Assembly (NCBI RefSeq): GCF_012689525.1
Contig: NZ_CP051516.1
Span: forward strand, 2,914,001 to 2,978,000
Reading direction: 5' to 3'
DNA: 64,000 nt
DNA from: Paraburkholderia aromaticivorans
Lineage (GTDB): Bacteria; Pseudomonadota; Gammaproteobacteria; Burkholderiales; Burkholderiaceae
In this document: positions 10,024-28,639 of the stretch, one piece after another
Layout of the letters: each line of letters begins with the position of its first letter
How positions within the stretch are numbered: position 1 is the first letter of the stretch
Translations under genes and position numbers: made by a program
The notes under the pieces: generated by a model
What the model was told of the DNA's origin: nothing
What the model saw: only the letters and a program-made list of their open reading frames with translations
Databases searched by the model: none

Positions 10024-10074
10024 AGTCGAATCCTTGGATGCAGTTGACGAGCCGCACGTGGCGGCCCGGGCTGG

Positions 10075-10602: not shown

Positions 10603-10628
10603 GGTTAAAGCTCCTTTGGACTCTGGCA

Positions 10629-11199: not shown

Positions 11200-11379
11200 G
11201 CTCCCTTGGATGCCTCTGGAATAACTGCATGTTGTCGTCACGACTTTTGACGTGTCCACGGTGGTCCACGGCTGTCATCGATTTGCCTAGCAATTTCCGA
11301 CATAGCGCCCGCCGTACGCCTATGGATTGGTCGTGATTTGAGACTGGTTTCATCCCAACTCGCGCATAGGAGCGAACCG

Positions 11380-11979: not shown

Positions 11980-12049
11980 TGGCGCAATCGGGCTCCCCGC
12001 AGCGCCTTCGTGACCGCACGATCGAGTCATCACATACAGGAGATTTACT

Positions 12050-12805: not shown

Positions 12806-13014
12806 TGGCACGAAAATCAGTGCTTATTTGCCGGGTTGCGATGCCCAATCGCGAGCAGGCGCGCGCGGTAACTCAGAAGGCGATCGCATCCGGGCGTGCC
12901 GATGTTCGGGATGTTGCAGCGGTCGAAGCGAGTCTGAACACCCACGGCCACCGTCTGGCGCTGTTCGACGCGGGCAGTCTCATGCGATTGCAGAGAGCGG
13001 CCGCAGGACAGTAG
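12805..13014 (+). CDS. Hypothetical small protein, 69 residues
   Basis: ATG 12805 shares a base with the previous gene's TGA. The protein (MARKSVLICRVAMPNREQAR...) has no recognised domain. It is followed by a clear hairpin terminator that closes the operon begun upstream. Confidence 0.5.
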   Translation: MARKSVLICRVAMPNREQARAVTQKAIASGRADVRDVAAVEASLNTHGHRLALFDAGSLMRLQRAAAGQ

Positions 13015-13038
13015 CCGTGCGGATTCACTACAGTTTCG

Positions 13039-13061
13039 AGCCCGGTTATTCCGGGCTTTTT
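13039..13061 (+). terminator. Rho-independent terminator
   Basis: AGCCCGG-ttat-TCCGGGCT followed by TTTTTAA, about 25 bases after the stop at 13014. The stem is strong with a proper U-tract. Confidence 0.75.
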
Positions 13062-13181
13062 AACGTCCGCGCGGCTCTTTTGCACCGGCAAAAAAGCCTT
13101 ATTCGACAAAGGATTCTTGCCCCCTTCTCACCCGAGAGTCGTGATCACGAAATAGAGCCCTAGACACACACGGGGCAACGC

Positions 13182-14402
13182 ATGTCATACGCGGTACACG
13201 AGCCGATCGGGCGCACGATTCAACTGGCCGCCCCGATGCGCGTCGAAGATGTTCTCCTGCGCCAGAACGAAGCCTATCCCGATCTTCCGCCGTCGTTCCA
13301 TTGCCGTCCGCTGCTGGCCGACATCACTGCGGCCACGTGCAAGACAAACTTTCTGGCTCACAAGGGCGTGTCGTGCCGTGGTTGCATAGTCGGCATGATG
13401 CACGCGGCCGTGACGTCGCGCACCGCCATCGACGTTCTGAACGACGAGAGCCTAAATCGCCACGAACGCGCAATGGCAAAGAACTCGTTGGCGTGCGTAC
13501 GTTGCATGAAAGATAGCAGCAGCAATAAGCGCCTCCAAATGGGGATGCGATTGGTGCGCGCCGGCACGATCTGTGTGTCGTGCTGGAATCGCGAATCCGA
13601 ATGCAAGCGCGGTCTGAATTCCAAAAACGGACAGCCGCGTAAATGGGCAAGTTGCCTGAGGCCGACCAGCGTCGTTATCCGCAAAGACGGCAAGCTGAAG
13701 ACGGTCGATATCGGCATGACAACCGGGCCGTCGGAAGCCATGAGGCACGCCGAGCGCAGGAATTTCGATCTGGTTGAAATCTGGATCGACGGCGAGCGCG
13801 GGGAGGCTATGCCAGACGTTGCCCCGCTTTCAGTCTCGACGATCGTCGCATCGAAAGCATCGAAGCCGCGCAAGCAACGCACGACGCATCTCCGGGTCGA
13901 GACCGGCCGCGACTTCGAACTTGATGACGATGAAGCGGCAGAGCCGTCCGCGCCGGTCGCCGACACCGTAGCACCGATTGATGCAACCGAGTCCGTCAGC
14001 GAGCCCGCTGGTTCGGTTGCCGCCGCCCTCACGAATCACGAGACCGCCAAATCCGAATGGGCTGGCTGCTACGTCACAGACACCGACGGCACGACGACGT
14101 ACGTTTGTGACTATGCCCGACAGCACTCACTTACAGACTGGCAGGCCGCAGTGGCTCTCGGCGCATGTGACGCAGACTACGAAGACGGAGAGGCCGAAGT
14201 CACCACGGCACCGGCACCAGAGCCAGAACCCGTGAAGCGCGAGCCAGCATCGCGCCGCTTGACCGGCAAGCAGCAACGCAAAGCACAGAAGGCGGCACGA
14301 CGCGCCGAGCGCGCACGAAACCAAGCAGCATCCGCGCACCAAGTTCCGACTATCAAGCAAACGGCTGCCGCTTACATGGCCGTGCTTTTCGCTGGCGCAT
14401 GA
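13182..14402 (+). CDS. Cys-rich phage protein with zinc-finger-like N-terminus
   Basis: A 406-residue protein. The N-terminal 160 residues carry Cys pairs that look metal-binding: CHCRP-type Cys near residue 41, CRGC near 65-68, CVRC near 106-109 and CVSC near 131-134. A middle segment, DIGMTTGPSEAMRHAERRNF, precedes an acidic, low-complexity region. A basic tail rich in Gln, Arg and Ala (RRLTGKQQRKAQKAARRAER) follows. It starts the next operon and overlaps its follower by four bases. No named family is recognised. Confidence 0.6.
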   Translation: MSYAVHEPIGRTIQLAAPMRVEDVLLRQNEAYPDLPPSFHCRPLLADITAATCKTNFLAHKGVSCRGCIVGMMHAAVTSRTAIDVLNDESLNRHERAMAKNSLACVRCMKDSSSNKRLQMGMRLVRAGTICVSCWNRESECKRGLNSKNGQPRKWASCLRPTSVVIRKDGKLKTVDIGMTTGPSEAMRHAERRNFDLVEIWIDGERGEAMPDVAPLSVSTIVASKASKPRKQRTTHLRVETGRDFELDDDEAAEPSAPVADTVAPIDATESVSEPAGSVAAALTNHETAKSEWAGCYVTDTDGTTTYVCDYARQHSLTDWQAAVALGACDADYEDGEAEVTTAPAPEPEPVKREPASRRLTGKQQRKAQKAARRAERARNQAASAHQVPTIKQTAAAYMAVLFAGA

Positions 14403-14599
14403 ACGACATCAACGCACACAGGAAGCCTCGCGAGCGAGTCATCCACAACCGCGCAGGAATCACCGTGAAGGCAGTGTCGCGCGTCGAAACGCTCGACCTC
14501 TCGCGCGGAATAACGATCAACAGTCCGCGCGACTCCCGGCCTGTCACGGTTCGCCCGCTCATCGTCGCGGAGTGGGCAGAGAAGCACCGAGGCACCTAG
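14399..14599 (+). CDS. Hypothetical basic protein, 66 residues
   Basis: ATGA overlap with the preceding gene's stop. The protein (MNDINAHRKPRERVIHNRAG...) is small and basic. No family is recognised. Confidence 0.5.
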   Translation: MNDINAHRKPRERVIHNRAGITVKAVSRVETLDLSRGITINSPRDSRPVTVRPLIVAEWAEKHRGT

Positions 14600-14701
14600 C
14601 CGCAAACGTCCGCAGGCATTGGGCCTGTGGATAACTTTAGTAGCAAAACGTAATAAGGTGCGATGCCATTTAGCACCGCACCAATCAACCTGGAGAATCA
14701 A

Positions 14702-14965
14702 ATGCTTGGACGATCCCGTATCGCACTCGCTGGCGCAATCGGCGCAATGGCATCCGTTGGCTCACACATCGGCCGCACGGTGCGCGACGCTGGCGCATCG
14801 GTTGTTGGTCTGCCGGATCGCCTCGACGAGAACGGCGTACCGGTTCACGAGCGCATCCCGCGCACGAGCGGCAACGCTATCAGCGTGGCGCAGGGCAAGC
14901 GCAATGCTCTGAAGGCTCGCAACCGCAAGCGCAACAAGGCGTCGCACAAGAGGCCACGCCCATGA
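14702..14965 (+). CDS. Small protein with hydrophobic N-terminus
   Basis: An 87-residue protein from ATG 14702 (GGAG seven bases upstream) with a hydrophobic stretch (IALAGAIGAMASVGSHIG) and a strongly basic C-terminus (KARNRKRNKASHKRPRP). It could be membrane-associated or nucleic-acid binding; no family is recognised. It overlaps the next gene by four bases. Confidence 0.5.
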   Translation: MLGRSRIALAGAIGAMASVGSHIGRTVRDAGASVVGLPDRLDENGVPVHERIPRTSGNAISVAQGKRNALKARNRKRNKASHKRPRP

Positions 14966-15066
14966 TGCGCTACGACGAATGGCTGACAGCGAGCCTGGAC
15001 GAAGCAATGGGAGAGAATCGCCCGCTGACGACCGAGGAGATTCTGGAGCGCCAGCAAGACGAGTAG
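14962..15066 (+). CDS. Very small acidic protein (34 residues)
   Basis: The frame starts at ATG 14962 in an ATGA overlap with the previous gene and ends at TAG 15066. It reads MMRYDEWLTASLDEAMGENR followed by a Glu-rich helix. It is too short for domain assignment; the overlap is the main support. Confidence 0.45.
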   Translation: MMRYDEWLTASLDEAMGENRPLTTEEILERQQDE

Positions 15067-15253
15067 GAAAGTCGCCACACTAACGACTGACGGAAAGAAA
15101 GAGGCCGCCGCGTGCGGGCTTTTGCAAATCATCGCGAGCGTTGAATGCATCGCCTATATTGAGTGAGCCAACGCTAAGCAGCCGGCGCAAAGGCTATTGG
15201 AACGTCACATTGGGAGATTGTTTACTTCTGAGAACAGCTTAACGAGGTTAGCC

Positions 15254-16144
15254 ATGTTCAATACTGAAAGTTTGGAGCCGTACTTAATGCTTGTGATCTT
15301 AGTAGTGGCGCTGCACAGTTTCATTGGACGTGCGCTGACAGTGGCGAATCCAGGCGCGATTCGAGTCGTCTGCTATTTTTTTTCCTTGTCCGTCTGTGCA
15401 ACGCCGGTTGTTATCTTGGCAGCGATAGCGAGAAAGCAAATAGGTGAAGACGGCGCGGCGAAAGGCGATCTCGGACACTTTATTAGGGATTGGCTCCTAC
15501 CATTTTTTTTTGATGTCGGATCGGACTTTATCTTTCTGTCGGTGGCTGTGGCGTTGGTGATCGTACCTCAACTTGTGAGCTTCCTGCTTTGTGCGTCATT
15601 TGGTTGTGCGCATGCTCCGATATTTATATCACGTAGCATTGACGTGCTGTTTTGGGGTCTCGCCAAGGCTTGTTGCGTTGCCTCGGGCATTTTATTTTCA
15701 TTCACATTATTTTGTAGTATACGGGGATGGCCAATAATTCCAGAATTCATTCCGAGAATAAAAATATATAGAACCCCCGTGACAGACCTCACTACCTATA
15801 TTACGCTGAGCGCAGCACTCCTCCTTTACGCATTCCTTTTTCTATGGCTTAGATTCTGTTTCAATCTACGTTACCTACGTTACGTAAACGATTGCCTGCG
15901 TGTCCTACGTGACCTACGTGACCTACGTGACCTACCAATTTCCATACGCGTACTCATACGCTGCCATCGCTTTCTAAGTCCACCGGTCGCTTTAATAGTT
16001 GCCTTTGGCCAAGGTTTCCACGAAGTAGCAACTCGACACAACCCGCCCCCAACACCGGAAGACGAAGTTACGCCGGAGGAACTGGAAAGACTTCGTTTGC
16101 TGTACGAGGCCGCTCTCCTAGCTAGAGCCATGCAACGAAACTGA
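15254..16144 (+). CDS. Polytopic membrane protein in AT-rich DNA
   Basis: A 296-residue protein starting at ATG 15254 with GAGG upstream. About five or six hydrophobic helices are visible, for example YLMLVILVVALHSFIG, VVCYFFSLSVCATPVVILAA, FIFLSVAVALVIVPQLVSFL and LSAALLLYAFLFLWLRFCF. A charged C-terminal tail with PPPTPEDEVTPEEL follows. Base composition is clearly lower in GC than the phage genes on either side, pointing to recent acquisition. Residues about 216-226 are encoded by a perfect tandem repeat of a 9-base unit. No family is recognised. Its place in the cargo zone makes a role in superinfection or stress defence possible but unproven. Confidence 0.6.
   Translation: MFNTESLEPYLMLVILVVALHSFIGRALTVANPGAIRVVCYFFSLSVCATPVVILAAIARKQIGEDGAAKGDLGHFIRDWLLPFFFDVGSDFIFLSVAVALVIVPQLVSFLLCASFGCAHAPIFISRSIDVLFWGLAKACCVASGILFSFTLFCSIRGWPIIPEFIPRIKIYRTPVTDLTTYITLSAALLLYAFLFLWLRFCFNLRYLRYVNDCLRVLRDLRDLRDLPISIRVLIRCHRFLSPPVALIVAFGQGFHEVATRHNPPPTPEDEVTPEELERLRLLYEAALLARAMQRN
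15904..15930 (+). repeat. Tandem 9-base repeat in the membrane protein gene
   Basis: CCTACGTGA occurs three times in a row, followed by a partial fourth unit, encoding Leu-Arg-Asp repeats. Degenerate copies (CTACGTTAC) lie just upstream at about 15866-15882. Being nine bases, unit gain or loss would keep the frame. Confidence 0.7.
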
Positions 16145-16148
16145 CGCA

Positions 16149-16172
16149 GAGCCCACCGCGCGCGGGCTTTTT
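16149..16172 (+). terminator. Rho-independent terminator after the membrane protein gene
   Basis: AGCCC, a nine-base loop, then GGGCT and TTTTT, located directly after the stop at 16144. Confidence 0.6.
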
Positions 16173-16280
16173 CATTGCCGGTACCTATTTCAATGAATGA
16201 AGCGCACATTACATTATGCGGCGCATCCGTGACAACAGGCATGTATAGTAGGACAGGCCGGGGGAGGAGCGACTATTGCC

Positions 16281-17237
16281 ATGAACACGATACTGACAAA
16301 CGCTGTGCAATCCATACAGATCGGGATTGAGGACTATAAATCGGACGATCCGCGCAGGGTGCTTTCTGCTATCAGAAACATTACGGCGGGCGTGCTTCTG
16401 CTTTTCAAGGAAAAGCTGCGTCAGCTTTCGCCGCCCGGCTCCGATGAAGTGCTGATTAAAGAGAAAACGCAGTTGCGGCTTGAGGCAGGGCAAGTGGTGG
16501 TTAACGGGAAGGGAGCTAAAACGGTCGACGTTTGGCAGATTAAAGAGCGCTTCGAATGGTTCGGCATTACTACAGACTTTGCGAAGGTCGATAAGATCAT
16601 AGCAATTCGGAACAAGATCGAGCATTACCATGCTGACGAGTCAGCAGGTGCCGTAAAAGCGCTCGTTGCCAGTTCGTTTTTGATCATCCGCGATTTCGTC
16701 ACGTACGAGCTTAAATGCGAGCCGGTTGAGCTATTGGGCGCGGACACTTGGGATGAACTGCTCGCGGTTGCAGACGTTTATAACAAAGAACTTGAAGAGT
16801 GCAAGCACGCTATTGAAGCTATCGAATGGGGTAGTGAAGCAATGGAGGGTATGGCAAAGGAGTTGTCTTGCCCAAAATGTGAATCCGATCTAGTGAAGCC
16901 GGTTGACCCCGATGTCGACCCTGTTCAGCACATGGAATTTGTCTGTACGGCTTGCGGAAAGGTGTCGGAATTGTCGGATATGGTGGAGGAAGCGCTTGCC
17001 GAGCATTTCGCATACGACATCTATACGTCTCTCAAGGATGGTGGTTACTCGCCGGTCGCAACGTGTTGGGAGTGCGGACGGGAAACGTTCATTGTTGAAG
17101 ATGGAACCTGTGCGGCGTGCGGCGCATCGATCAAATACCACAACTGCGTGGTCTGCCATCAACCCCTCGGACCAGAAGAACAAGGGTTCAATGGCCTGTG
17201 CGGCTTGGACTACCATCAAGCAAGGAAGGACGATTGA
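16281..17237 (+). CDS. HEPN-motif protein with C-terminal zinc ribbons
   Basis: A 318-residue protein. The N-terminal helical part ([20 protein letters not shown], then [14 protein letters not shown]) leads to R110-N-K-I-E-H115 in the context [14 protein letters not shown]. This is the R-x4-6-H signature of HEPN ribonucleases, which are common toxin and abortive-infection effectors. The C-terminal half carries three or four zinc-knuckle pairs: CPKC, CTAC, CWEC with CAAC, and CVVC. The gene is lower in GC than its neighbours and stands alone between a terminator and a decayed region. RNase activity triggered by phage infection is a hypothesis. The motif is seen directly; the family name is by pattern. 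Confidence 0.6.
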
Positions 17238-17414
17238 GCTTGCTGGTCGCCCAGCGTAAGGGGGCGTAGCGCTCCCTACTCTTTGTCAGTCGTGGCGTGT
17301 ACGGCAAATGGAAAGCGAATCAATCGTGCGATACAGTGCGAACCTGTTCAGCACCAATAAATTGACCGCGAGGCCGCCATGTCCACTCAAGATCGTTTCA
17401 CCGGCAACGGATAA

Positions 17415-17811
17415 CGGCTCGGGGCGTCCCGCTCGAATCGCGCCGCGGTGCGGACGGCAAAGAGATCGCGCTCAAGCCGAAGGAGAAAGAGCCCCTGAAG
17501 TCGTGGAGCGGTTTGCGCGACGCGCTCAAGCAGGCGCAACTCGACCAGCTTACGAATGGCGACTGGCAAGCATCGTTGAAGGCGCTGAACGCGGCCTATG
17601 ACGATTTCGTGGCGAAGCACGGCAACATCCTCGACTACTCGACCATCACGCGCACCGACGACGAAGGCAACACGACCGAGACGAAGCGCTTCAAAAACGA
17701 TCCGCTCTTGCGCCTCGACGTGGACGGCCCGCTCGCCTACTCGCTGGAACACATCACGTCCGAAGGCGACATCATCAAGGCGCCGGTCCTGTCTGAGCGC
17801 GTGCTCGAACA
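17415..17811 (+). pseudogene. Fragment of a large phage helicase/methylase-type protein
   Basis: The frame reads KEIALKPKEKEPLKSWSGLR, then DALKQAQLDQLTNGDWQASL, NAAYDDFVAKHGNIL and DPLLRLDVDGPLAYSLEHI. This resembles an internal segment of the very large DEAD-helicase/methyltransferase (antirestriction-type) proteins of some phages and integrative elements. It has no proper start; just upstream a short frame (ATG 17379, MSTQDRFTGNG) ends after 11 codons. After about 17811 the similarity fades. It is therefore a remnant of a deleted gene. The family assignment is from memory of such proteins and is tentative. Confidence 0.45.
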
Positions 17812-18058
17812 CCGCCGTTCCATGATCCACGTCACGGGCCCGAAGTTCGACGCCAACGTAACCGAATGGCTCGCCTGCACGGCACTCATCTCCCGGCGCG
17901 AAACCGGAACCGTGACTGGGGAAGCGACGAAGAGGCGGTTAGAATCACCCATGCATCACGAAGCCCCGAGTTTTTTGGCGGCCTCCATGCGACACCGGTT
18001 GCGACCTTCTGCCGTCTCTTCATCGCACCCAGTGTCAGCCGACTAGTCACCGGTATGG

Positions 18059-18086
18059 AGCCCACCAAAGCATTCGGGGCTTTTTC
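18059..18086 (+). terminator. Possible terminator
   Basis: AGCCC, a 13-base loop, GGGCT, then TTTTTCT. It probably belonged to the gene whose remnant lies upstream. Confidence 0.4.
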
Positions 18087-18553
18087 TATTGGCAGTCGGC
18101 AGGTCTAGCGCCGCAAATAGGGAGCGCGGCATACAAGAAACCCGATGGGGGGCTGGCCCGGCCCTGGCGGAACAGAGGCACGGCGTAGTGGCCGTGTTTG
18201 GCATAGCGCCTACCGCGATGAAACAGTGCCCAAGTTGGGGGAACATGCGGAAGCGCGAGCCCCCTTGAGTAGACGGATGGTCACCGCACGTAGGCGCGAC
18301 AGTCTTCTCGGCACAGTCAAACCCACCGCTATTTTTTACGGGCAAGGTTCTTTTGTCTTCATCGAAGCGAGGTTTTGCAGTTGCATCACACCGCGCCGGT
18401 CAGGTCAGTCAATAGCGCCTACGTGAGCCGCTTCGCGTCGCCCGGCGAGGGCATGTGTGTGTTTCTGCAGAACAGACAAGCAGGTATGTGACACACGGGG
18501 CCGTCCGCCCCGTCGCGAAGCGACTCATGATAGGACGCCGGAGCGGCGAGCGG
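18087..18553. other. Gene-poor stretch
   Basis: About 470 bases with no supported gene. A GC-rich hairpin (ACGGGGC-N5-GCCCCGT, 18495-18513) lies downstream of the minus-strand antirepressor gene and might help end its transcript, although it lacks a U-tract. Confidence 0.3.
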
Positions 18554-18984
18554 CTACGGCCTCTGCGGTCCATTGACGAGTGTGATTACCCGGTGGCGCG
18601 GCGCTTCGTACGAAATGCGCTCGCGATCAAGGAAGTAGTCGCGCACCGCGTTGCCTTCGTCAGTGTGTTCAGCCATTGCGATCTTCTTCGCTGTTTCGAG
18701 CGCCAAGCGGTACTCAACAGGGGGCGTCCGGGCTTCGAACAAATTTGTTCGAAACGCTCAAAGTGTAGATTTTCAACGAATTTTAGTTGCCGGATGCGAT
18801 CCTGAATCCATTTGCGGAAATTTGCTTTTGTGCCGATTTTCGCGTGCAGTTCGCGCCCATCTACGACCTCGCACACGACGCCGCCGACCGTCCCGCGCTC
18901 GACATTGACGACGATCATTCCTGTCGCCTCCATCGGTTCCAGACTGCGCGGCGCATTGCGCGACGGCGCGTTATCGGTGGGCAT
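18554..18984 (-). pseudogene. AntA-type phage antirepressor, frameshifted
   Basis: From ATG 18984 the frame gives VDGRELHAKIGTKANFRKWI, then QDRIRQLKFVENLHFERFEQ, the AntA/AntB domain pattern. At about 18735 the sequence slips. The continuation PPVEYRLALETAKKIAMAEH and VRDYFLDRERISYEAPR is in another frame and runs to 18554. The joint is a five-base C run on the coding strand; one extra C would restore ...KPGRPPVEYRLAL. The antirepressor would inactivate the prophage repressor, so its loss could lock lysogeny. A sequencing error at the homopolymer is the alternative. Confidence 0.7.
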
Positions 18985-19402
18985 TTCTGTCGTCGCACCC
19001 TTCCTATAAGCCCAGTCGGGCGAGCCGCCGAAGCGCATGAACATGCAAAGTTAGGCGGCTCGATGTCTCTGACCGACCCTAAAACGTCATTCGACTACAA
19101 ACTTCTCAACGCCCGCTACCTTGCTGCTAACCGACATTCGCTGATGGCGGAACACCCAAGGTATCACGGTACTTGGAACGGAACGGTGTCAATTGATGCG
19201 CTCATGACAATCTCCTTTCGATAGAAGGGAGCCAGTTTGCATCTGGTCAACGGGCCTTGCATCGTACCCTCGCCAGATTTACGATCAAAGTTGTCGCGCG
19301 CTAACGATTCTTGCACGGCGGCGCAGCGGTGCAAGGCGGCCTTAACTGACGCCCAACTTTTAGTAGGCCATAACCGTAGGTGACCAATCAGGAACCCACC
19401 CA
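18985..19402. other. Intergenic stretch with two doubtful small frames
   Basis: A minus-strand ATG at 19205 has a strong AAGGAG at 7-base spacing but opens only 13 codons (MSASIDTVPFQVP, stop at 19164). This could be a truncated antirepressor start or an upstream peptide. A plus-strand frame 19063-19224 (MSLTDPKTSFDYKLLNARYL...) overlaps it. Neither is secure. The right end must contain the promoter of the Nudix gene. Confidence 0.3.
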
Positions 19403-19876
19403 ATGCCACAGCCTGGCCTGACTCAACGTAAAAGACTCGAGAGTGGGAAGCCCCTTCGACAGGTTGCAGCACTGCCCTACAGATTCTCCGAAAAGGGTAC
19501 CTTCGAATTTCTACTCATTACTGCCAGGTCAACCCGCCGCTTCATCGTTCCAAAGGGCTGGCCAAGTAAGCAAAGCAGAGATTGGCAGATGGCGGCGACT
19601 GAGGCGAGGCAAGAGGCTGGTATTACCGGAAAGGTCGCGAAGTCACCGTGCGGTCGCTACTTATACGAGAAGCGCATTGCAAATATTTACACAACAATTC
19701 GGGTTGATGTATATAGCTTGCGAGTCAAGATGGAGTTTAATGATTGGCCGGAAAAGACAGAGCGATCAAGGAGATGGCTTTGTGCGGAAGATGCCATCCT
19801 GCTTATCGATGAGCCGGGTTTGATCCCTATCATATGCCGCTTCTCGGACGTCATAAAAAGTAAGCGGAAAAACTAG
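19403..19876 (+). CDS. Nudix-fold protein, partner of the TIR-Nudix gene
   Basis: A 157-residue protein. After a strand-rich start (LRQVAALPYRFSEKGTFEFL) it has RFIVPKGWPSKQSRDWQMAA followed by TEARQEAGI, a Nudix box of the KGWP type. Against the consensus Gx5Ex7REUxEExGU, the first Glu is Ser, the Arg is Thr, and one of the three clustered Glu is Gln. Two of the clustered Glu remain, so hydrolysis is uncertain. Nudix enzymes split X-linked nucleoside diphosphates such as ADP-ribose or NAD. AGGA precedes ATG 19403. The DNA is AT-rich compared with the phage genes. The stop (TAG) shares its G with a GTG in the frame of the next gene, which suggests an operon. Confidence 0.75.
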   Translation: MPQPGLTQRKRLESGKPLRQVAALPYRFSEKGTFEFLLITARSTRRFIVPKGWPSKQSRDWQMAATEARQEAGITGKVAKSPCGRYLYEKRIANIYTTIRVDVYSLRVKMEFNDWPEKTERSRRWLCAEDAILLIDEPGLIPIICRFSDVIKSKRKN

Positions 19877-19944
19877 TGCGCGGATGGCTTCGCACAATAG
19901 TGCGGGGCTGCGTTTGCAGTCGTTTTCCAGTGGAGTTATATAGC

Positions 19945-20916
19945 GTGGCTGAACCACTCAAACCAAGAATATTTATTGGCTCGTCTAGCGAAGGGTCTGA
20001 CGTCGCGCACGCAATTCAAACGGGCCTTGGCAGCGGCGTCGAATGCACAGTTTGGGACCAAGGCACCTTCGAGTTAGGTAAATCAACACTAAATAATCTG
20101 TATGAGTTTATCGAAAAATTTGACTTTGCGATCTTTGTCGCAGCGCCAGACGATGAGGTTGAGGTTCGCGGAAAGCATTATTCATCCACCCGGGACAACG
20201 TTATATTCGAACTAGGCCTATTTATGGGCGGACTAGGGACAGATCGAGTTATCTTCATTACTGCTGGAAATATTAGGGAATTCAAACTCCCATCGGATCT
20301 TCAAGGCATTACTCACGCAACATACGAGTCAGAACGGGTGGATGGAAATATTGTTGCGGCGGTCGGGCCCGCTTGTTTGGCTATCCAACGCCATATAGCG
20401 AAAAAATCAAAGCTGCCCGGGCGAACGAAGGACTATGGCCTTAGCTATGTAGGAGCAATATGCTTCCGCAGCAAAGCGAAGCGGATTCAATACCTCCTTG
20501 TTTCATCTGACCGTAACAGAATTATTTTCCCTAAGGGCGACATGAAGTCCATTGACAGCGATGCAGCCGGAGCCGCTGGTAGAATTGCCAAGAAGGAGGC
20601 GGGAGTGCGCGGTCGAATAGTCGATGGAAAGTCTCGTTTTATACAATACTTCAATGATGAATATAATGCGGTTCACCGGATAGAAGTGTTCTTACTGGAT
20701 ATCTCAAGCATTCTCGAAGTAGGACATGGGTGGCGGAATCCTCAATGGTTCGATTTAACGGAATCAATCACTGCGCTGACAAGCGATCGTGATTACAATA
20801 CCAGCATTCAGCTGTCCCAAGCTATGGAATGGGCCGAGCAGCAGATTCGCAAATATGTCAACAATTTTTGTGGTGATTCAGGTGAGCAGAAGAGGAAAAA
20901 AAAGCAATCTCGGTAA
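19945..20916 (+). CDS. TIR (CAP12-type) domain fused to a degenerate Nudix domain
   Basis: A 323-residue protein from GTG 19945 (GGAG at 9-base spacing). The frame is open to GTG 19876, which touches the Nudix stop. Residues 8-110 match the TIR-like family of predicted nucleotide-binding proteins (PF10137, as in CBASS Cap12 and Pycsar TIR effectors): RIFIGSSSEGSDVAHAIQTG, then VWDQGTFELGKSTLNNLYEF, then RDNVIFELGLFMGGLGTDRV. E89 in FELG is the likely catalytic Glu for NAD cleavage. Residues about 160-300 form a second domain with a Nudix-like box, FPKGDMKSIDSDAAGAAGRI then AKKEAGV. There the Glu of RE and the first Glu of EE are lost, so it is probably a binding rather than a catalytic module. 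A defence role is inference. Confidence 0.8.
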   Translation: MAEPLKPRIFIGSSSEGSDVAHAIQTGLGSGVECTVWDQGTFELGKSTLNNLYEFIEKFDFAIFVAAPDDEVEVRGKHYSSTRDNVIFELGLFMGGLGTDRVIFITAGNIREFKLPSDLQGITHATYESERVDGNIVAAVGPACLAIQRHIAKKSKLPGRTKDYGLSYVGAICFRSKAKRIQYLLVSSDRNRIIFPKGDMKSIDSDAAGAAGRIAKKEAGVRGRIVDGKSRFIQYFNDEYNAVHRIEVFLLDISSILEVGHGWRNPQWFDLTESITALTSDRDYNTSIQLSQAMEWAEQQIRKYVNNFCGDSGEQKRKKKQSR

Positions 20917-20959
20917 ATACCTCCGAGCTTTTCGATTGCCTGAGCAGTGACTTAATAAT

Positions 20960-21315
20960 ATTGTTCCACTGTTGGGTTTGGCAGGTGGAAACGTTCTATG
21001 CATCCCGCATTTTTTAGCTACTTCGAGAGGCGCCGCGGCGCCTTTGACGTTCACGTCAATCGCTTCGAACGGACGATCGACCAGTCCGCTCGTGCCCAAA
21101 ATGCCGGCGAGATGGAATACAAGAGTTGAGCCGGCGACCGCAATTTGAGCATTTCCATGTCCAAGACGCTCGCACAGATGCTCCGCGCCCCTTCTCTATG
21201 GTGCAATGGTTCGTCGAAGTATCGCAAGCAAGCACGTCAAATCCGCGCTGCACAAAAGCTGCCACAACATGGCGTCCAATGAATTCAGTGGCTCCGGTGA
21301 CGACCGACTTCAGAC
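20960..21315 (-). pseudogene. Remnant of an NAD-dependent sugar epimerase/dehydratase
   Basis: On the minus strand, VVTGATEFIGRHVVAAFVQR, then GFDVLACDT (the Rossmann nucleotide-binding start of SDR epimerases), appears in one frame. LGTSGLVDRPFEAIDVNVKG, then AAAPLEVAKKCGMHRTF, appears in another. The pieces are in family order but separated by frameshifts and a deletion. It is a decayed copy of a polysaccharide-type epimerase gene, unrelated to the phage backbone. Confidence 0.6.
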
Positions 21316-22133
21316 TGACCTCCGGTGCCCGAAGTTGATTGTGCTTTTGATAGCGAGCTCGACTAATTCAGTGTGATTTATTATCCTAATTACCGACGCT
21401 TGTAAGTGTGCGCCTTTGCGCGTGCCTGCAACATTGTCGATTTTAGTGACTGTACATACATCACAGAAACAGCACGCGTGGATGATAGATCATCCGCTAT
21501 GAACGACGGCGCAACGCTCATCGTCGGCGACCGAATGGACGCGCACAAAGGCGAAGCGGATAGACGAATGTCCATCTGGTAGCCTAGCGGAATGACGCTT
21601 CATGGCCGGTCCCAGCCTGTCGGCGATCGGCTGTACTCGACCCATCCCAGCCGTTCGTTGCTGCACATGACCGATGGCTGTTAGCGAAGTGGAACGGTCA
21701 TTCCGCGCCGGCACTCGTCGACAAGTCATCTTTTGGTTTAGTGGACACGATACTCCCAAGCGCTTCAACGAAAATCAAGGTGAGTTGCCGGGCGCCTACG
21801 AAGCTGTGGCGGCGCACGTGATCTAGCGGAGTGAAGTACGCGGTCGTCAGATGTCGCTGGATGTGCTGTACAACCGGTGGGCTCCAGACGTTGCGTGGCG
21901 TCAGCTGATGCGACATGGTTTGAAGCACAGCCGTTTGCTGTCGCATTGCTTGCAAAAAAACGCGCTATAACCAAGGTAATCGCAAAGGCTGGGCAGTGCA
22001 TCATTTCGTCCGCCACGACGACCTCGTCGCGTATCTGAAGTCTGACCCGGATGTCGCGGAGCGCGTCAAAGCGCATCGTGCCATCAAGCGTCGAAAAGGC
22101 TCCCAGTTGGACCTGATCGCCGCATAGTTCGCA
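21316..22133. other. Decayed region with one C-terminal gene fragment
   Basis: Most of this stretch has only short broken frames. Near its end a plus-strand fragment (about 21970-22127; GWAVHHFVRHDDLVAYLKSD, then VAERVKAHRAIKRRKGSQ) reads like the C-terminus of a real protein. It stops at 22127, right before a strong terminator. No start or family could be recognised, so it is left as a remnant. Confidence 0.4.
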
Positions 22134-23006
22134 TCACCCGTCGCGCCACGGATTCGTTTCCGTGGCGTTTTTTTCTGGCGATGCCGAATCGCTGTCCGGA
22201 CCGTCGTTTTGCTTGCTCTCAGCATGCAACTGATTGGCAATGTCCAGGAGCCGTCGCAGTTCCTCCTCTGAACCCGCCTCCACTTCGATATTTCCGGCCT
22301 TCAATCGCAGCTTCCGGCCTGCACGGCCCTGTAGCCAAGCTGCAAGTGCTGCCCCGACAACGGGACCAATGATGGGGCCCGCTGTCTTGGTGAATTCAAT
22401 CAGCACCTGGAGGGGCCATACCTGTTCGAACACTGGACTGTGGAGACAATGAACTCTCTCACCACCGTTTGAGGTTGCGACCTGGTACGCGCGCTCAAAG
22501 TCTTCAGAATCCTTCCATTCTTTAGAGGCAATCTCGATCGTGACACGGATAAGGTTATTCGCAGAGGCCACCCGTTGCTTTCGCTTCAGCGAAGACCCGG
22601 CCGGTGCCACCCCCCAGACGCCGGTGCCTCGCGCGGCGTCCAAGTCGCCGCCGTCCTTGCTCTCAATATGCAACTGGTTGGCGATCACGATAAGCCGGTT
22701 GGATTGTGCCGCAGAAGTCGCCTCGGCTTCGCTATCCCCGGTCTTGAACCGTAGCGTTCGGCCCTCACCCCGCTCCAGCCAATCTCCCAGCTCTGCTGCG
22801 ACATGGGGACGTATCAGAGGCCCCACTGTTTTGGTGAATTCGATCAGAACGACATGAGGCAATTCGCCATCTGCCCGTGACTTTTCGAGACGATCAGTCA
22901 CATCGGCACCACCGTCGTCGATGGCGACCCGGCGAATGCGGGCTAAGTCATCCGAATCCTCGCTACCTTCAGCGCGAAGTTCGATAGTGACAAGCGTTGG
23001 GATCAT
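22134..23006 (-). CDS. Two-repeat protein resembling effector-associated constant component 1 (EACC1)
   Basis: A 290-residue protein from ATG 23006 (GGAGG at 8-base spacing). It consists of two similar halves. Repeat 1 has VLIEFTKTVGPLIRPHVAAE, then LGDWLERGEGRTLRFKTGD and NRLIVIANQLHIESK. Repeat 2 has VLIEFTKTAGPIIGPVVGAA, then LAAWLQGRAGRKLRLKAGN and RRLLDIANQLHAESK. Each begins with a strand-helix part (LVTIELRAEGSEDSDD / IRVTIEIASKEWKDSE). The layout resembles the EACC1 module predicted in bacterial conflict systems, but this is a by-eye comparison. A Gly-rich hydrophobic helix in each repeat might insert in a membrane. The last codons overlap a terminator hairpin for opposite-strand transcripts. 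It lies 1.2 kb from the TIR-Nudix locus. Confidence 0.6.
   Translation of the reverse strand: MIPTLVTIELRAEGSEDSDDLARIRRVAIDDGGADVTDRLEKSRADGELPHVVLIEFTKTVGPLIRPHVAAELGDWLERGEGRTLRFKTGDSEAEATSAAQSNRLIVIANQLHIESKDGGDLDAARGTGVWGVAPAGSSLKRKQRVASANNLIRVTIEIASKEWKDSEDFERAYQVATSNGGERVHCLHSPVFEQVWPLQVLIEFTKTAGPIIGPVVGAALAAWLQGRAGRKLRLKAGNIEVEAGSEEELRRLLDIANQLHAESKQNDGPDSDSASPEKNATETNPWRDG
22143..22174 (+). terminator. Terminator hairpin overlapping the end of the EACC1-like gene
   Basis: CGCCACGG-attcgttt-CCGTGGCG followed by TTTTTTT on the plus strand, 16 bases after the stop of the plus-strand fragment at 22127. The same bases encode the last residues (NATETNPWRDG) of the minus-strand gene. Confidence 0.75.
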
Positions 23007-23772
23007 GGTCGCCGCCTCCCCTTCCTCACTGATCAAACACGTTATATAACCCGCGAGAGGAAAGTGCCAGGCGCCGGTGCCTCGCTCTGTATCCGAGCCC
23101 ACGCTTCTGATGCACAGCTGTATCTGGTTCCGGTGCCCAAAAGCGCTTCGTCGCACCTTTCTCTAGCTCCCCCTTTGCGCGCGATGATCCTCTAGACCGT
23201 TAAAAGCCGGCATAATCCTCTGAATGAGCCGGGGCGCTTCAATGAATGACGCATCAATAGACAACCTTGACGTGATGCTTCTCGACCGACCGTTGCGGAC
23301 GGCGAAACCCAGTTTTCAGCGTTCGGCACAGGGTGGGCGCTTTGTTCTTTCGTCCTACCGGCCGGCGTAGCCATTCGGCAACTCGGAGCGACGGATCTTT
23401 TCGTATCGCAACTCCATTTGGCTTTTCAGTTCAATCGGTACCGGATTGTGGCTGCGGTAGTCGCCTTAGGTGCTCGAGAGGCTGGAAGACCATCGATTTT
23501 TCCGATATCTGAACGGCTTCGAACGCCTTCGACACCGCCGCCACGAGATTTTTTAACGTCTCTGAGGTGAGCGAAACCCGTCATTGGAATGGCGGCGACG
23601 CGCGTTGCGTGGGTGTCGCTTCATGGCCGAATTGAGTCCGCCCGGTCAGACCGTCATGCCGGCCCGTAGGAAGATTGCGACCGCCTGCTTTACGCATGCC
23701 TTCAATCGAGATGGAATTTTGCCCCCCTTTATGCAGGGACCCGAGCCACCGTCATCTTGCCGTGCGCGACCT
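23007..23772. other. Decayed intergenic region
   Basis: The EACC1-like frame stays open upstream of its start to 23156 but without clear meaning. On the minus strand around 23365-23560 two short frames look protein-like (NLVAAVSKAFEAVQISEKSM, then PVPIELKSQMELRYEKIRRS in a different frame), suggesting a broken gene of unknown family. Nothing else is supported. Confidence 0.3.
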
Positions 23773-24027
23773 TCATTGAAAATTCCGGGACGCCTTCGCC
23801 AGCGTGTCGGCACGGCGCTGCGTTGACGGACTTGCGCCAGATTGAGCGGCGCGGTCGGCGGTTGTCTTTACAGAGTGTTCTTCACGAACACTCTGTAAAT
23901 TCTTTGTGTAGCGATTTGCGCCCATACCGCCGTGGTGAGCAGCCTCAGTCCAATCCTGAGCAAGTGCCACGATTACAGCCAACTGCATCGTCGTAAGATG
24001 GCGGCGATGCTTGTTCTCAGACATCAC
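23773..24027 (-). pseudogene. Fragment of a ParB-domain-like regulator
   Basis: The frame begins VMSENKHRRHLTTMQLAVIV and later reads TTADRAAQSGASPSTQRRAD. The first part matches the region of phage/plasmid ParB-like proteins that follows the nuclease-like fold (S/EN-x-HRRHLT-x-x-Q). The preceding conserved domain is missing upstream, so this is a truncated copy. A perfect 14-bp inverted repeat interrupts its middle (23867-23899). Confidence 0.5.
23867..23899. repeat. Perfect 14-bp inverted repeat, 5-base loop
   Basis: TTTACAGAGTGTTC, a TTCAC loop, then GAACACTCTGTAAA: every base of the stem pairs. It lies inside the ParB-like fragment. It could be a terminator-like hairpin, a protein-binding site or the scar of a small inserted element. 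Confidence 0.8.
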
Positions 24028-24073
24028 AAATGCGACGGGTGGGACGAATCATCTCGCCCTTTCCAAGTGCCTG

Positions 24074-24136
24074 TTTTGATTGAATTATAGGAATTCCTGT
24101 AATTGAATTCCTTGAATTCCAAGAATTGAGTTACTG
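24074..24136. repeat. Cluster of GAATT repeats
   Basis: GAATT occurs five times at 9-14 base intervals (24082, 24091, 24105, 24114, 24123), including two full GAATTCC units, in otherwise AT-rich non-coding DNA. Its position upstream of the ParB-like fragment suggests a centromere-like or operator array, but no binding protein can be named. Confidence 0.5.
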
Positions 24137-24231
24137 GAATCACAGGAACTGGATGGGCGGGAGCTCGCTAACTCGGGCGGGGGATATGAACCGTCCACGC
24201 CCCTGCGCTCCTACTGTCAGAGGGTCAGCTT

Positions 24232-24441
24232 TTGTCTGCCCCCCCTCCTCTCAGCGGCCGGGACGGCGTAAGCACCAGTTACGCCGCCGCACCGAACGAC
24301 AACGGCGAGGCGGCCGTCTTCGGCTGGAATAACCGCATCGTCCTGACCGGCATCCGTATGGTGCGCGAGGAATGGGCGAAAGTCGTCACCGAAGCCGAGC
24401 GCCTGATTGCCGATGCACAGGCCGAGACCGCCGCGGCCTGA
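24232..24441 (+). pseudogene. Possible gene fragment
   Basis: A frame with good codon bias reads AAVFGWNNRIVLTGIRMVRE, then AKVVTEAERLIADAQAE. It has only a TTG start without a ribosome binding site, and it appears to be the C-terminal part of a longer phage protein. No family is recognised. Confidence 0.35.
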
Positions 24442-24499
24442 AGCGGCCGGAAGGCGCCAAGGGAATCCCACAGATTTGTGGAATCTCACTCAAGGCGAT

Positions 24500-24523
24500 A
24501 GATGGTCCAAATTTGGACCATCT
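24500..24523. promoter_or_regulatory. Perfect 24-base palindrome (operator candidate)
   Basis: AGATGGTCCAAA is directly followed by its exact reverse complement. It stands in a non-coding gap between gene fragments. The size and perfect symmetry suggest a binding site for a dimeric regulator. Confidence 0.55.
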
Positions 24524-24686
24524 CCCCTCCCCCTGATTTCCTGCCTGCCAACGGACCGGGACGCCAATTTTGGCGCTAGCCCAGTGTCAGTTCAGTCACA
24601 GCATGTCCGCGAGATCAATTGCGTAACCTTGCGGGCCGCTCGCTGGCCACCGATAATCGCCGCACCAATAAAAAAGAGGGGCCTCT

Positions 24687-24878
24687 ATGAAAGACGGTTG
24701 GCAGGCGCCATTAGCCGCACTGGTCGCGGTCATCGAAGGTGCGGTTGAACGTTCCGACAATAGGCCTGCCACCCCGGCTGATCGTTGGAGACCTAGCGCC
24801 GTGCAAATTCGCGGCCTGACCGGCTTCGCGCAGCAATCTAGACTCCGACTTGAGGTTGAGCATCCGTCGCGGCCCTAA
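24687..24878 (+). CDS. Hypothetical small protein
   Basis: A 63-residue frame (MKDGWQAPLAALVAVIEGAV...) with AGAGGGG 6 bases before ATG 24687. No family is recognised. The ribosome binding site is the main support. Confidence 0.35.
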   Translation: MKDGWQAPLAALVAVIEGAVERSDNRPATPADRWRPSAVQIRGLTGFAQQSRLRLEVEHPSRP

Positions 24879-24930
24879 ATGAGCATGCTGTCGTGCTAGA
24901 GTGCCGCGACGACCGAACGGGGGAACTGAC

Positions 24931-25188
24931 ATGTACAAGTTAATCACAGTGCGCGAAGCGGGCGATGATATTGGCGTTGACTTCGACTTGGAAGTGAACG
25001 GCGTAGTACAGCATTTTGCCGTCAACACTGAAGCGATTGAGGATTTGCTTGAAACTCGCGACAAGCTTCACGGCACAGAACTTACCAAAGGCTTTCACAA
25101 GGTCGCCTATCGAATTTGCGAGGTCGCCGCGCGCAAACACCGTCAGCCAAGCAATGCGCGCTTGCTGCTGACGACCAGCGATTTCTAG
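24931..25188 (+). CDS. Hypothetical protein, 85 residues
   Basis: From ATG 24931 (GGGGGAA upstream) the protein MYKLITVREAGDDIGVDFDL, then NTEAIEDLLETRDKLHGTEL, looks like a small folded domain with beta strands followed by helices. No family is recognised. The upstream in-frame codons lack support. Confidence 0.5.
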   Translation: MYKLITVREAGDDIGVDFDLEVNGVVQHFAVNTEAIEDLLETRDKLHGTELTKGFHKVAYRICEVAARKHRQPSNARLLLTTSDF

Positions 25189-25218
25189 AATCGTCGTCAA
25201 ATCGGGTGAAATGACAAA

Positions 25219-25560
25219 ATGAAAAAGACATTGCTTCTCGCGGCGATGCTGCTGACCGGATGCGCGAGCGTTTCGGATATTCATACAAGCAAAGCTGATC
25301 CGGATTGCGCCCACTCATGCTCGGCGAACTATTCCGAATGCCTTGGTAAGTTCACGCTCTTTCCAATTCAGGCGCAACACCAATGCACCGACGCTTTGCG
25401 CCTGTGTGTTGCCGCCTGCCCAGCGAGAGGAAGTGTGGCCGCGTCTCCGGTATCGAACCCATCGCAACGGCTCGCGAATCTTGACGACCTTTACAAGCGC
25501 GGTCTGATTAGCAAGGGCGAATACGATGCGAAGCGCGCCGAAGTACTAAAGGGTCTGTAA
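25219..25560 (+). CDS. Lipoprotein with C-terminal SHOCT domain
   Basis: A 113-residue protein with signal MKKTLLLAAMLLTGC (lipobox LTGC), five further Cys in the mature N-terminal half (CAHSCSANYSEC ... CTDALRLCVAAC), and a C-terminal SHOCT-type segment (LANLDDLYKRGLISKGEYDA, then KRAEVLKGL). SHOCT is a short oligomerisation module. It precedes the Rap1a-like gene closely. It is probably an envelope cargo protein of the element. Confidence 0.7.
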   Translation: MKKTLLLAAMLLTGCASVSDIHTSKADPDCAHSCSANYSECLGKFTLFPIQAQHQCTDALRLCVAACPARGSVAASPVSNPSQRLANLDDLYKRGLISKGEYDAKRAEVLKGL

Positions 25561-25595
25561 AGACTTTTGTGAATTGCGGGAACGTCGGGGGAAAT

Positions 25596-26000
25596 GTGGA
25601 AAAACGACAAGCAGCGGCGTTCGCGTTGGCTATGGTCTTTGTATCGCTTTCCGTCAATAGCTATGCCTCGCGCGGATGGGTCGGCAATGATCTGAAGGCG
25701 AAATGCGACGTGGCGCTTCGAGCGGTATCTGACCCGTCCGCTTGGGATACGAACATAGCGCTGTCTTCCGGGCAGTGTGCCGGTTATATCGCTGGTGTGA
25801 TCGAAGGCACGCGCGTAACGTCCATTCTCGACAAGGCGGGCAAGTATCCATATTGCATGCCGGAAACGACTACGCCGCTGCAAGACATTTCAGTTGTAGA
25901 GAAGTATCTGAACGATCACCCCGAACAATGGGATATGCCTGCTGGCCTTTTGATTGACCAAGCATTCTTGACCGCCTATCCGTGTTCGAAGGGTAAGTGA
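25596..26000 (+). CDS. Rap1a/Tai-family (immunity-protein-like) exported protein
   Basis: A 134-residue protein from GTG 25596 with an N-terminal signal (AAAFALAMVFVSLSVNSYA). The mature part shows the Rap1a pattern: Cys near the start (KAKCDVALRAV), SSGQCAGYIAGVIEGTRV, YCMPETTTPLQDISVVEKYL, HPEQWDMPAGLLIDQAFLTA and terminal YPC. Some members (Rap1a, Tai) are periplasmic immunity proteins against type VI amidase effectors; many others are of unknown role. No effector gene is visible next to it, so it would be an orphan. The frame extends to 25569 but the GTG has the better ribosome binding site. Confidence 0.65.
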   Translation: MEKRQAAAFALAMVFVSLSVNSYASRGWVGNDLKAKCDVALRAVSDPSAWDTNIALSSGQCAGYIAGVIEGTRVTSILDKAGKYPYCMPETTTPLQDISVVEKYLNDHPEQWDMPAGLLIDQAFLTAYPCSKGK

Positions 26001-26021
26001 AGGGAAATTCTTCGCGAGCTA

Positions 26022-27185
26022 GTGATATGCGTCATAAATAATGCAACTTAACGGCGATTCGCAAGTCTCCTTTACATAGAGGAGAACCCATGAGAATCGC
26101 GGCGAAAGTTGAACTGAGCGAAGCACAACGTAAACAGTTGGAGACGTGGGCGACTGGGCGAACGATTCCGGTTCGACTGGCCGAGCGTGCCAAGATGATA
26201 TTGCTCGCGGCGCAAGGCAAGACGGACAAAGAGATCGGTGCGGACCTTGGTATCTGGCGAGGCACGGTGGCACGCTGGCGCGGTCGCTTTATCGCTGATG
26301 GTGTGACTGGGATCGAGCACGATGAGACGCGGCCCGGGCGCAAGCCGAAGATCTCCGCGCGCAAGGTCAAGTCCATCGTAGCGCTGACGACGCAGCAGCG
26401 GCCGGATAACGCGACGCATTGGAGTACGCGCAGCATGGCAGCGGTGGCCGGTATCAGTGAAGCGAGCGTGCGGCGCATCTGGCAGGCGTACGGCCTCAAG
26501 CCGCATCGGGTAGAGAGCTTCAAGGTGTCGAACGACAAGCGCTTTGCCGAGAAACTCGAGGCCATCGTCGGGCTGTATCTCGATCCCCCGGAGCACGCCT
26601 TGGTCTTCAGTTGCGACGAGAAGTCCCAGATCCAGGCGCTTGACCGGACCCAGCCGGGCTTGCCGCTGAAGCGAGGTCGCGCTCAAACGATGACGCATGA
26701 TTACAAGCGCCATGGTGTGACGACGCTGTTTGCCGCGATGAATACACTCGATGGAAGTGTCATTGGCCAGTGCCAGACGAAACATCGTCATCAGGAGTGG
26801 CTGAGTTTCTTGCGCAAGATCGATCGCCACACACCCAAGAACAAGGAGTTGCATTTGATCGCCGACAATTACGCCACCCATAAGCACCCCGAGATAAAGG
26901 CGTGGCTGGCCAAGCACCCGCGCTTCCACATGCATTTCACCCCCACCAGTGCCTCTTGGCTCAACATGGTCGAACGCTTCTTCCGTGACTTGTCAGAGAA
27001 CCAGTTGCGACGTGCGGCCTTCCGCTCGGTACCTGAATTGGTCCGCGCGATCGAACAGTACGTGGAGAAGCACAACCGTGATCCGAAACCGTTCATCTGG
27101 ACGGCAAAGGCATCCGACATCCTGGCGAAAGTCACGCGTGCCAGGGCCAAGCTGAATAAGATGCAATCCGTTTGACGCACATCAC
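26022..27185. mobile_element. Intact IS630-family insertion sequence
   Basis: The element is 1164 bp with near-perfect terminal inverted repeats (left GTGATATGCGTCA, right read inward GTGATGTGCGTCA). It is flanked on both sides by TA (26020-26021 and 27186-27187), the target duplication typical of IS630/Tc1 elements. The transposase stop codon lies within the right repeat. Nothing suggests damage. Confidence 0.9.
26090..27175 (+). CDS. IS630-family transposase
   Basis: A 361-residue DDE transposase. It has an N-terminal helix-turn-helix (GKTDKEIGADLGIWRGTVAR), the catalytic core with FSCDEKSQIQALD (first Asp), HLIADNYATHKHPE (second Asp) and TPTSASWLNMVERFF (Glu). The length is full for the family. 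It is preceded by GAGGAG at good spacing. It is the only gene of the insertion sequence. Confidence 0.93.
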   Translation: MRIAAKVELSEAQRKQLETWATGRTIPVRLAERAKMILLAAQGKTDKEIGADLGIWRGTVARWRGRFIADGVTGIEHDETRPGRKPKISARKVKSIVALTTQQRPDNATHWSTRSMAAVAGISEASVRRIWQAYGLKPHRVESFKVSNDKRFAEKLEAIVGLYLDPPEHALVFSCDEKSQIQALDRTQPGLPLKRGRAQTMTHDYKRHGVTTLFAAMNTLDGSVIGQCQTKHRHQEWLSFLRKIDRHTPKNKELHLIADNYATHKHPEIKAWLAKHPRFHMHFTPTSASWLNMVERFFRDLSENQLRRAAFRSVPELVRAIEQYVEKHNRDPKPFIWTAKASDILAKVTRARAKLNKMQSV

Positions 27186-27367
27186 TAGATGCCGGCCCAC
27201 GACCCATGTACTCAATCGCTCAATTTCGTACGGATAGCGTTATCCTGCCCGAAATATAGGGGTATGCGCGTTTTGGACGTGTCAGATTATGGGCTCCCCT
27301 TTTCGTACACCTTCTCGAACCTCCCAAGATCTTCTTAGTCGCCGCAGGTCCAATAAAAGTCAGCAGG

Positions 27368-27670
27368 CTATTCATTGGTGAGAACATCCGTGAGCAGACC
27401 TCGTGACATCTCGGTCAACATCGCATCGAGCGCGGCGCGGCGGTCAGCGTATTCATGATCGGCACTGATCATGCGGTCAGCCGCGGCGTGAACATCGGCC
27501 ATCGATGGGCCGTGGTGAATCGGGACCGTCACTGGCACGACAAGCGACGCGATGAAGAGGCGCACACTTTCTCCATGGAAGGGGGTCACGTCCAATGTGA
27601 CCCCCCTCTCAGTCAGCATTTTGCGCAGCCGTGCCGTCGTCGCACTGCTCGCCCTTTCTGCTTCAGTCAT
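27368..27670 (-). CDS. Hypothetical phage-type protein
   Basis: A 100-residue helical protein (MTEAERASSATTARLRKMLT...) with GGAGG six bases before ATG 27670. It overlaps the end of the upstream gene, so both form an operon. No family is recognised. The 180 bases between it and the insertion sequence hold nothing evident. Confidence 0.5.
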   Translation of the reverse strand: MTEAERASSATTARLRKMLTERGVTLDVTPFHGESVRLFIASLVVPVTVPIHHGPSMADVHAAADRMISADHEYADRRAALDAMLTEMSRGLLTDVLTNE

Positions 27671-28415: not shown

Positions 28416-28639
28416 GGTTACCTCGCGGCATCTGTCATGCCCTCAATATGACCATCACGAACGGGTTCGGTCACCAAGAGGTCACCATCGGTAACCGGGA
28501 CAGAATATGCGCGCGGCGCATATGGTTGTGATGGAGAGCGCGCGACGCCGGTTTCCTGAAGTCTACCGACGCGCGGCCATCGTGCGACCAGGGTAGTAGA
28601 TGCGCTCGGATCAGCCCCGCATTAACCACTCCTTAGTCC

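Follow-up and report, generated by a model that had tools for sequence, protein, structure and literature searches.

A Two-Gene Locus Encoding a Nudix Protein and a TIR–Nudix Fusion

The window analyzed here is a stretch of 64,000 nucleotides from Paraburkholderia aromaticivorans (contig NZ_CP051516.1, positions 2,914,001 to 2,978,000). An initial annotation had placed two neighboring + strand open reading frames (ORFs) at 19403..20916 and had suggested that they form an undescribed anti-phage system. Both were found there: ORF1 is a stand-alone Nudix protein, and ORF2 joins a CAP12-type TIR domain to a C-terminal Nudix-fold domain in which two of the three glutamates of the Nudix box are replaced. 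The features of the locus are as follows:

19403..19876, + strand: ORF1, stand-alone Nudix protein, 157 amino acids; AGGA at 19390–19393 ahead of ATG 19403
19556–19621, + strand: ORF1 box region; E67 and E71 kept, Q70
19945..20916, + strand: ORF2, TIR–pseudo-Nudix protein, 323 amino acids from GTG 19945; GGAG at 19932–19935
19966..20328, + strand: CAP12-type TIR domain of ORF2; Pfam match, Glu in NVIFELGLF
20440..20862, + strand: Nudix-fold domain with degenerate box, ORF2 residues 166–306
20536..20604, + strand: degenerate Nudix box of ORF2, G198 ... R213-I214-A-K-K217-E218-A-G220
20788..20805, + strand: RDYNTS motif, ORF2 residues 282–287, where the long C-terminal helix begins; invariant in 10/10 fusion proteins

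The C-terminal regions of P0045 (4 of 193 candidates) and P0047 (8 of 393) served as queries and together defined a fusion family of ten proteins (P0045–P0054), nine with a TIR domain and one fragment; such a search picks up a relative only where an exact five-residue word is shared. Since homologues with identical domain order exist, chance ORFs were ruled out. ORF2 has 346 residues when read from GTG 19876, but this codon is probably 23 codons too early and the true start GTG 19945, because the latter is preceded by GGAG and because P0046, P0047, P0051 and P0054 begin no more than three residues away. Against this start stand the longer, dissimilar N-termini of P0048, P0049, P0050 and P0053; P0052 is the fragment. 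ORF1 ends at 19876, ahead of the probable ORF2 start, so that a small gene adjoins the effector on its 5′ side, as in type II-like toxin–antitoxin pairs. ORF2 and the − strand ORF at 22134–23156 are not separated by any + strand ORF of 100 amino acids or more, and the unit is therefore taken to consist of two genes. Promoter and terminator scans of the locus gave scores not above those of shuffled sequence.

The TIR Domain of ORF2

The match of ORF2 to the Pfam family PF10137 (CAP12-PCTIR_TIR) had an E-value of 3.2e-31 and a score of 108.2 bits, compared to a curated cut-off of 24.7. The glutamate that the initial annotation had pointed out in the FELG sequence (E89, numbered from GTG 19945) was found within an F-E-(L/I/M)-G motif in all nine members of the family in which the TIR part is present. 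The PADLOC PycTIR model matched ORF2 at an E-value of 8.2e-34, and the NCBIfam Cap12 equivalog models scored it at 119 and 101.4, with cut-offs of 450. The CAP12 effectors known so far are linked to the depletion of NAD+, in agreement with the name of the NCBIfam model, and an NADase activity of the ORF2 TIR domain may be inferred from its family and its conserved glutamate. Known triggers of TIR effectors are cyclic nucleotides or direct contact with phage proteins. In other proteins, TIR activity rises on oligomerization (PMC10937652).

The Fused Nudix Domain

No Pfam Nudix family matched ORF1 or ORF2 at E ≤ 1. Among the nine other members of the fusion family, PF00293 scored above its cut-off in P0050, P0051 and P0054 and below it in P0046, and was unlisted in the remaining five. 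Structure prediction and fold comparison assigned the Nudix fold both to the C-terminal domain of ORF2 and to ORF1, as the initial annotation had proposed, and phmmer searches against PDB sequences agreed: the DIPP Nudix enzymes matched ORF2 over residues 170–280 (E-value 1.9e-7) and ORF1 at 4e-5. The nearest solved relatives of both domains are the DIPP and diadenosine polyphosphate hydrolases (DIPP1–3, DDP1, Ndx1, and the human and worm Ap4A hydrolases). The ORF2 model had a pLDDT of 71.2 and a pTM of 0.53, and ended in a helix spanning residues 284–322.

When the ORF2 box, R-I-A-K-K-E-A-G-V, is set against the frame R-E-U-x-E-E-x-G-U, I, L or V takes the place of the first Glu (position 214), Lys replaces the second (217) and the third stays Glu, each in 10/10 members. 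The loss of box glutamates that the initial annotation had described is thus family-wide, and since the replacements are identical in all ten, random decay was ruled out. Judged by sequence, the putatively dead box is a conserved pattern of the fused domain. Also invariant among the fused domains are R192, K197, G198, H244, R264, W268 and the RDYNTS motif (282–287).

Glu66 and Glu69 are catalytic in DIPP1. In a profile alignment with DIPP1, on which the positions were counted, Lys of ORF2 faces Glu69, and Glu66 is faced by either R213 or the I/L/V residue, neither of them Glu, as HMMER places a one-residue gap beside Glu66. R282 faces Lys133, which we take to be a ligand contact; literature support for Arg115 and Lys133 as ligand contacts was sought, and nothing usable was found. 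H244 aligns with His91 of DIPP1 and R264 with Arg115 (numbered by counting backward from the end of the printed alignment). According to PMC7619153, His91 contacts phosphate in some binding modes and Arg115 forms the end of a loop said to participate in substrate binding. A sensor role would fit this domain, since its pocket appears to be kept while hydrolysis would be lost.

The Stand-Alone Nudix Protein

ORF1 carries the box T-E-A-R-Q-E-A-G and keeps two of the three glutamates of REUXEEXGU, E67 and E71, in line with the initial annotation. Its model is confident (pLDDT 94.6), with the DDP1/DIPP, MutT1 and ApnA hydrolases as nearest folds. A protein search returned 44 proteins, ORF1 included, at E ≤ 0.001 among 68 candidates. 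E67 and E71 were present in 44/44 rows of this family, and residue 70 was Glu in 33, Gln in 8 (ORF1 among them) and Asp in 3; Q70 alone is therefore no sign of decay. Relatives of ORF1 occurred on 514 plasmid records, mainly of Rhizobium, Agrobacterium and Sinorhizobium, all at less than 60% identity. The nearest relative, P0002, matched PF00293 at 19.8 bits, just under the cut-off of 21.1.

In an 85-row tree of the Nudix domains, the ten fused domains clustered together (100/100) at the end of a long branch; P0001 grouped with P0002 (fork 100/98) among the stand-alone proteins, apart from the fused domains, with deep placements unsure owing to the long branches. This separation of the fused domains from ORF1 ruled out a recently duplicated Nudix gene as the origin of both.

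Distribution of the Fusion and of the Gene Pair

Apart from the genome of the window itself, the fusion was found in none of 397 family-sample genomes and in none of 143 genus genomes, and a ten-row profile returned nothing at an E-value of 1e-15 in 398 other order and 368 other class genomes; the family, genus, order and class samples overlap. Within the genus, the full-length profile matched 24 of 144 genomes, in 23 of them, all but our own, only at positions 3–165 of 316, the TIR part. The phylum sample gave matches at E ≤ 0.001 in 71 of 398 genomes. The protein of the window scored 272.8 bits there, matches beyond the best 30 were all below 33 bits, and among the loci of the best 30 a TIR match within the fetched stretch was seen only at our own locus. 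Scans of contigs with the C-terminal domain yielded no confirmed relative among 93 + 139 pattern matches in genome contigs and 33 + 13 in viral contigs. Any claim of rarity is limited, since these scans rest on short exact patterns and may omit the genome itself. Using tblastn, ORF2 had no match in phages; the plasmid records matched numbered 36 for ORF2 and 39 for P0054, in no case across 80% of the query.

In the family sample, a single further genome, G331 (locus L004), matched at E ≤ 0.001, with an intact Nudix box and no TIR match. The L004 protein (739–1935, 398 amino acids) has an N-terminal half that is hydrophobic by eye and resembles the plan of Cap16, a membrane-NUDIX effector of CBASS. 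The Nudix parts of L004 and L002 match the PADLOC candidate PDC-S07 at 1.2e-6 and 3.2e-5, respectively.

The exact ORF1 protein occurs on 5 contigs and the exact ORF2 protein on 7. P0002 (58% identical to ORF1) and P0046 (71% identical to ORF2 in the C-terminal part) are each found on a contig of 12,424 bases, and because of this equal length they very likely share one contig. No other ORF1 relative had a longest contig equal in size to those of P0047–P0054 (1,685 to 187,921 bases); this partner search used only the longest contig per cluster and word-limited matching, and some contigs were short. The pair thus probably recurs once, as P0002 and P0046; for the eight further fusion proteins no partner was found. 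No description of a TIR–Nudix fusion or pairing was found among the papers listed from the PMC literature, outside which most subscription papers lie, and to that extent the locus is undescribed, as first supposed.

The Integrated Element

The gene pair is carried by a mobile element whose ends were revealed by comparison with relatives, and not by a repeat search of the window:

3235..40433, no strand: integrated phage-like element carrying the gene pair, 37.2 kb; empty site in relatives
38886..40208, − strand: integrase of the element; phrog_1, 8.4e-35

The site was empty in five of the seven relatives compared (L036, L037, L038, L039 and L040), which match the left flank up to 3234–3243 and then directly match from 40434. 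L035 has an integrase-like stretch at the site (64% to the integrase of the window), and L041 matched on the right side only, within the stretch fetched. With five empty sites and one other integrase-like stretch among the seven, the site may be an integration hot spot. Both element ends share ATGATGCAGC. The element has inserted into the 5′ end of what is presumably mutS, and the ORF from 40377 takes its first codons from the element.

Among the 20 element ORFs scanned are the integrase, genes for replication and for a tail-lysin-like protein, and one resembling a transposase, and none matched a capsid or terminase family in PHROGs. The initial annotation had called the genes AT-rich prophage cargo. 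They are AT-rich relative to their surroundings (G+C content 0.50 and 0.47, compared to 0.58 for the element and 0.63 for the right flank) and mobile, but "prophage" is better replaced by "integrated phage-like element".

Four other genes of the element were noted:

16281–17237, + strand: protein of the PADLOC candidate defense family PDC-S64 (1.7e-52), about 2.2 kb upstream of the pair; weak zinc-ribbon matches, second candidate defense gene of the element
17513–18046, + strand: DarB-like antirestriction remnant (phrog_10089, 7.8e-24, about 105 of 4647 profile positions)
22134–23156, − strand: 340-amino-acid ORF whose two halves look alike by eye, with a 38-nucleotide direct repeat
26090–27175, + strand: transposase-like ORF (PHROGs transposase family, 3.2e-6; better matches of unknown function), probably an insertion sequence within the element

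The 340-residue ORF had no Pfam family above cut-off and may resemble effector-associated constant components.

Comparison with Known Defense Systems

The domain arrangement of ORF2 is a novel variation on known TIR effectors. Like CBASS Cap12 proteins (TIR-STING and related), it joins a CAP12 TIR with the same kind of glutamate to a second, putatively sensing domain; unlike them, that domain is Nudix rather than STING, and the equivalog scores fall far below 450. The initial annotation had seen no cyclase partner, and the SMODS cyclase model (PF18144), the only CD-NTase model searched genome-wide, indeed had no match in the whole genome; the same search gave matches in 3 of 14 control genomes, above the cut-off in two. 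On the strength of this SMODS search, a CBASS or Cap16-type locus was rejected. Like Pycsar PycTIR, ORF2 has a TIR domain of the same Pfam family, but its fused domain is Nudix, and a PADLOC scan of 12 proteins of the window found neither a Pycsar cyclase nor Thoeris (ThsA/ThsB).

With Cap16, ORF2 shares a NUDIX domain on a putative immune effector (PMC10419184). In contrast to Cap16, which is listed there among membrane effectors, the partner domain of ORF2 is a TIR that precedes the Nudix domain, the box is degenerate in all fusion members found, and the genome search gave no SMODS cyclase. As proposed for ORF2, NrtR, a Nudix–helix-turn-helix sensor of ADP-ribose, uses a Nudix fold to sense for a fused output domain (PMC9503650; 3gz8); the ORF2 output domain is TIR, not helix-turn-helix, and its sequence and fold are nearer to the DIPP/ApnN hydrolases. 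The NrtR–ADP-ribose structures (3gz8) were lower in the Foldseek list for ORF2, outside the best 50 VIA-align rows. ORF2 differs from the DIPP hydrolases themselves in lacking the catalytic pair described above.

Of the 36 plasmid matches found, four were viewed, and all four are CAP12-type TIR genes with no cyclase annotated within 4 kb, plasmid annotation being incomplete. Three of the plasmid genes (L043, L044 and L045; 256–276 amino acids) are annotated only as nucleotide-binding proteins.

A Possible Mechanism and Its Alternatives

We tentatively favor, at somewhat short of an even chance, a two-gene abortive-infection unit in which a TIR effector is gated by a dead Nudix domain and ORF1 clears the ligand. 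ORF2 would be a latent NAD-hydrolyzing effector with the dead domain as its switch, and its DIPP/ApnN-type pocket would bind but be unable to cut a polyphosphate-linked nucleotide or another NDP-X compound. Infection would raise the level of this ligand, which would bind to the C-terminal domain, leading the TIR domains to assemble and deplete NAD+. ORF1 would hydrolyze the same class of ligand and so hold the threshold; such a ligand-clearing brake is plausible, its chief rivals being a directly binding antitoxin and a passenger. The initial annotation had named ADP-ribose or NAD-like nucleotides as ligands, which is unsupported as written, both Nudix domains being nearest to the DIPP and diadenosine-polyphosphate hydrolases; this kinship suggests a ligand of the DIPP/ApnN type rather than the ADP-ribose type, although ADP-ribose keeps some likelihood, given the NrtR–ADP-ribose structures among the lower Foldseek matches.

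A more specific form, which we consider improbable, would make the pseudo-Nudix domain a receptor of dinucleoside polyphosphates (Ap4A-type ApnN), with ORF2 switched by this alarmone class and in no need of a cyclase of its own. Host enzymes under stress or the phage's ATP-dependent DNA/RNA ligases would produce the trigger, whose basal level ORF1 would keep down by hydrolysis. T4 DNA and RNA ligases are among the ApnN makers listed in PMC7705103, which would provide a route to a signal without a cyclase. In a variant, an ADP-ribose-type ligand would set up a feed-forward loop from the product of the TIR itself.

Several points weigh against the gated-effector proposal, of which the weakest parts are the conservation of the pair and its function, the latter inferred from sequence. 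That the word-limited search over longest contigs found no partner for eight fusions counts against an obligate pair, and the association probably comes down to this locus and one match by equal contig size. ORF1 could be a passenger, since it has many stand-alone relatives and none of the 31 other Nudix loci fetched, most of them extending 1.5 kb to either side, showed a TIR, and Q70 may lower its activity. The substrate-binding Arg41 of DIPP1 has no conserved counterpart in the fused domains, and the confidence of the ORF2 model is modest. Finally, Cap16 with a mutated NUDIX domain remains toxic according to PMC10419184, so an effector-linked NUDIX domain need not be a switch.

ORF2 might instead act as a solo TIR defense protein, with the C-terminal domain as a protein-sensing or oligomerization module and ORF1 as an unrelated metabolic Nudix passenger. 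The plasmid TIR genes without an annotated cyclase, the wide spread of ORF1-type genes and the TIR-free Nudix loci are in keeping with this, but the invariant pocket residues and the probable second contig with both relatives are not, and we regard it as rather unlikely. Unlikely, too, is a toxin–antitoxin type pair, in which ORF1 would bind the ORF2 Nudix domain directly and hold the TIR off until infection removed or modified ORF1, whose catalytic residues would then be irrelevant. ORF1 lies directly 5′ of ORF2, as antitoxin genes often do, the two Nudix domains have their nearest solved relatives in common, and ORF1 and P0002 are more divergent than their fusion partners (56% against 70% identity). 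The retention of E67 and E71 throughout the ORF1 family, however, suggests selection for catalysis, and the failure to find partners for eight fusion proteins also speaks against such a pair.

The least probable alternative, to which we give very little weight, is an RNA-cap module in which the TIR would strip NAD-capped RNA of its nicotinamide, leaving the Nudix parts to bind or remove the rest of the cap, the targets being phage or host transcripts and not free NAD+. The link of known CAP12 effectors to NAD+ depletion argues against this, as do the two lost glutamates of the fused box and the absence of a recognized RNA-binding domain in ORF2 by Pfam scan. In its favor, the fold matches of ORF2 include the RppH–Ap4A complex 7sp3, and two papers state that bacterial TIR proteins take nicotinamide off NAD-RNA, with the Nudix enzyme NudC completing decapping in vitro (PMC10937652), and that the Nudix enzyme RppH removes Ap4N caps (PMC7705103).

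If the ligand-gated TIR effector is borne out, it would represent a new trigger chemistry for TIR proteins, nucleotides with a phosphate-linked partner, and a defense unit without a dedicated signal-making enzyme. The biological roles of Ap4A are called elusive in PMC7705103, and the locus could tie alarmones such as Ap4A to phage defense.
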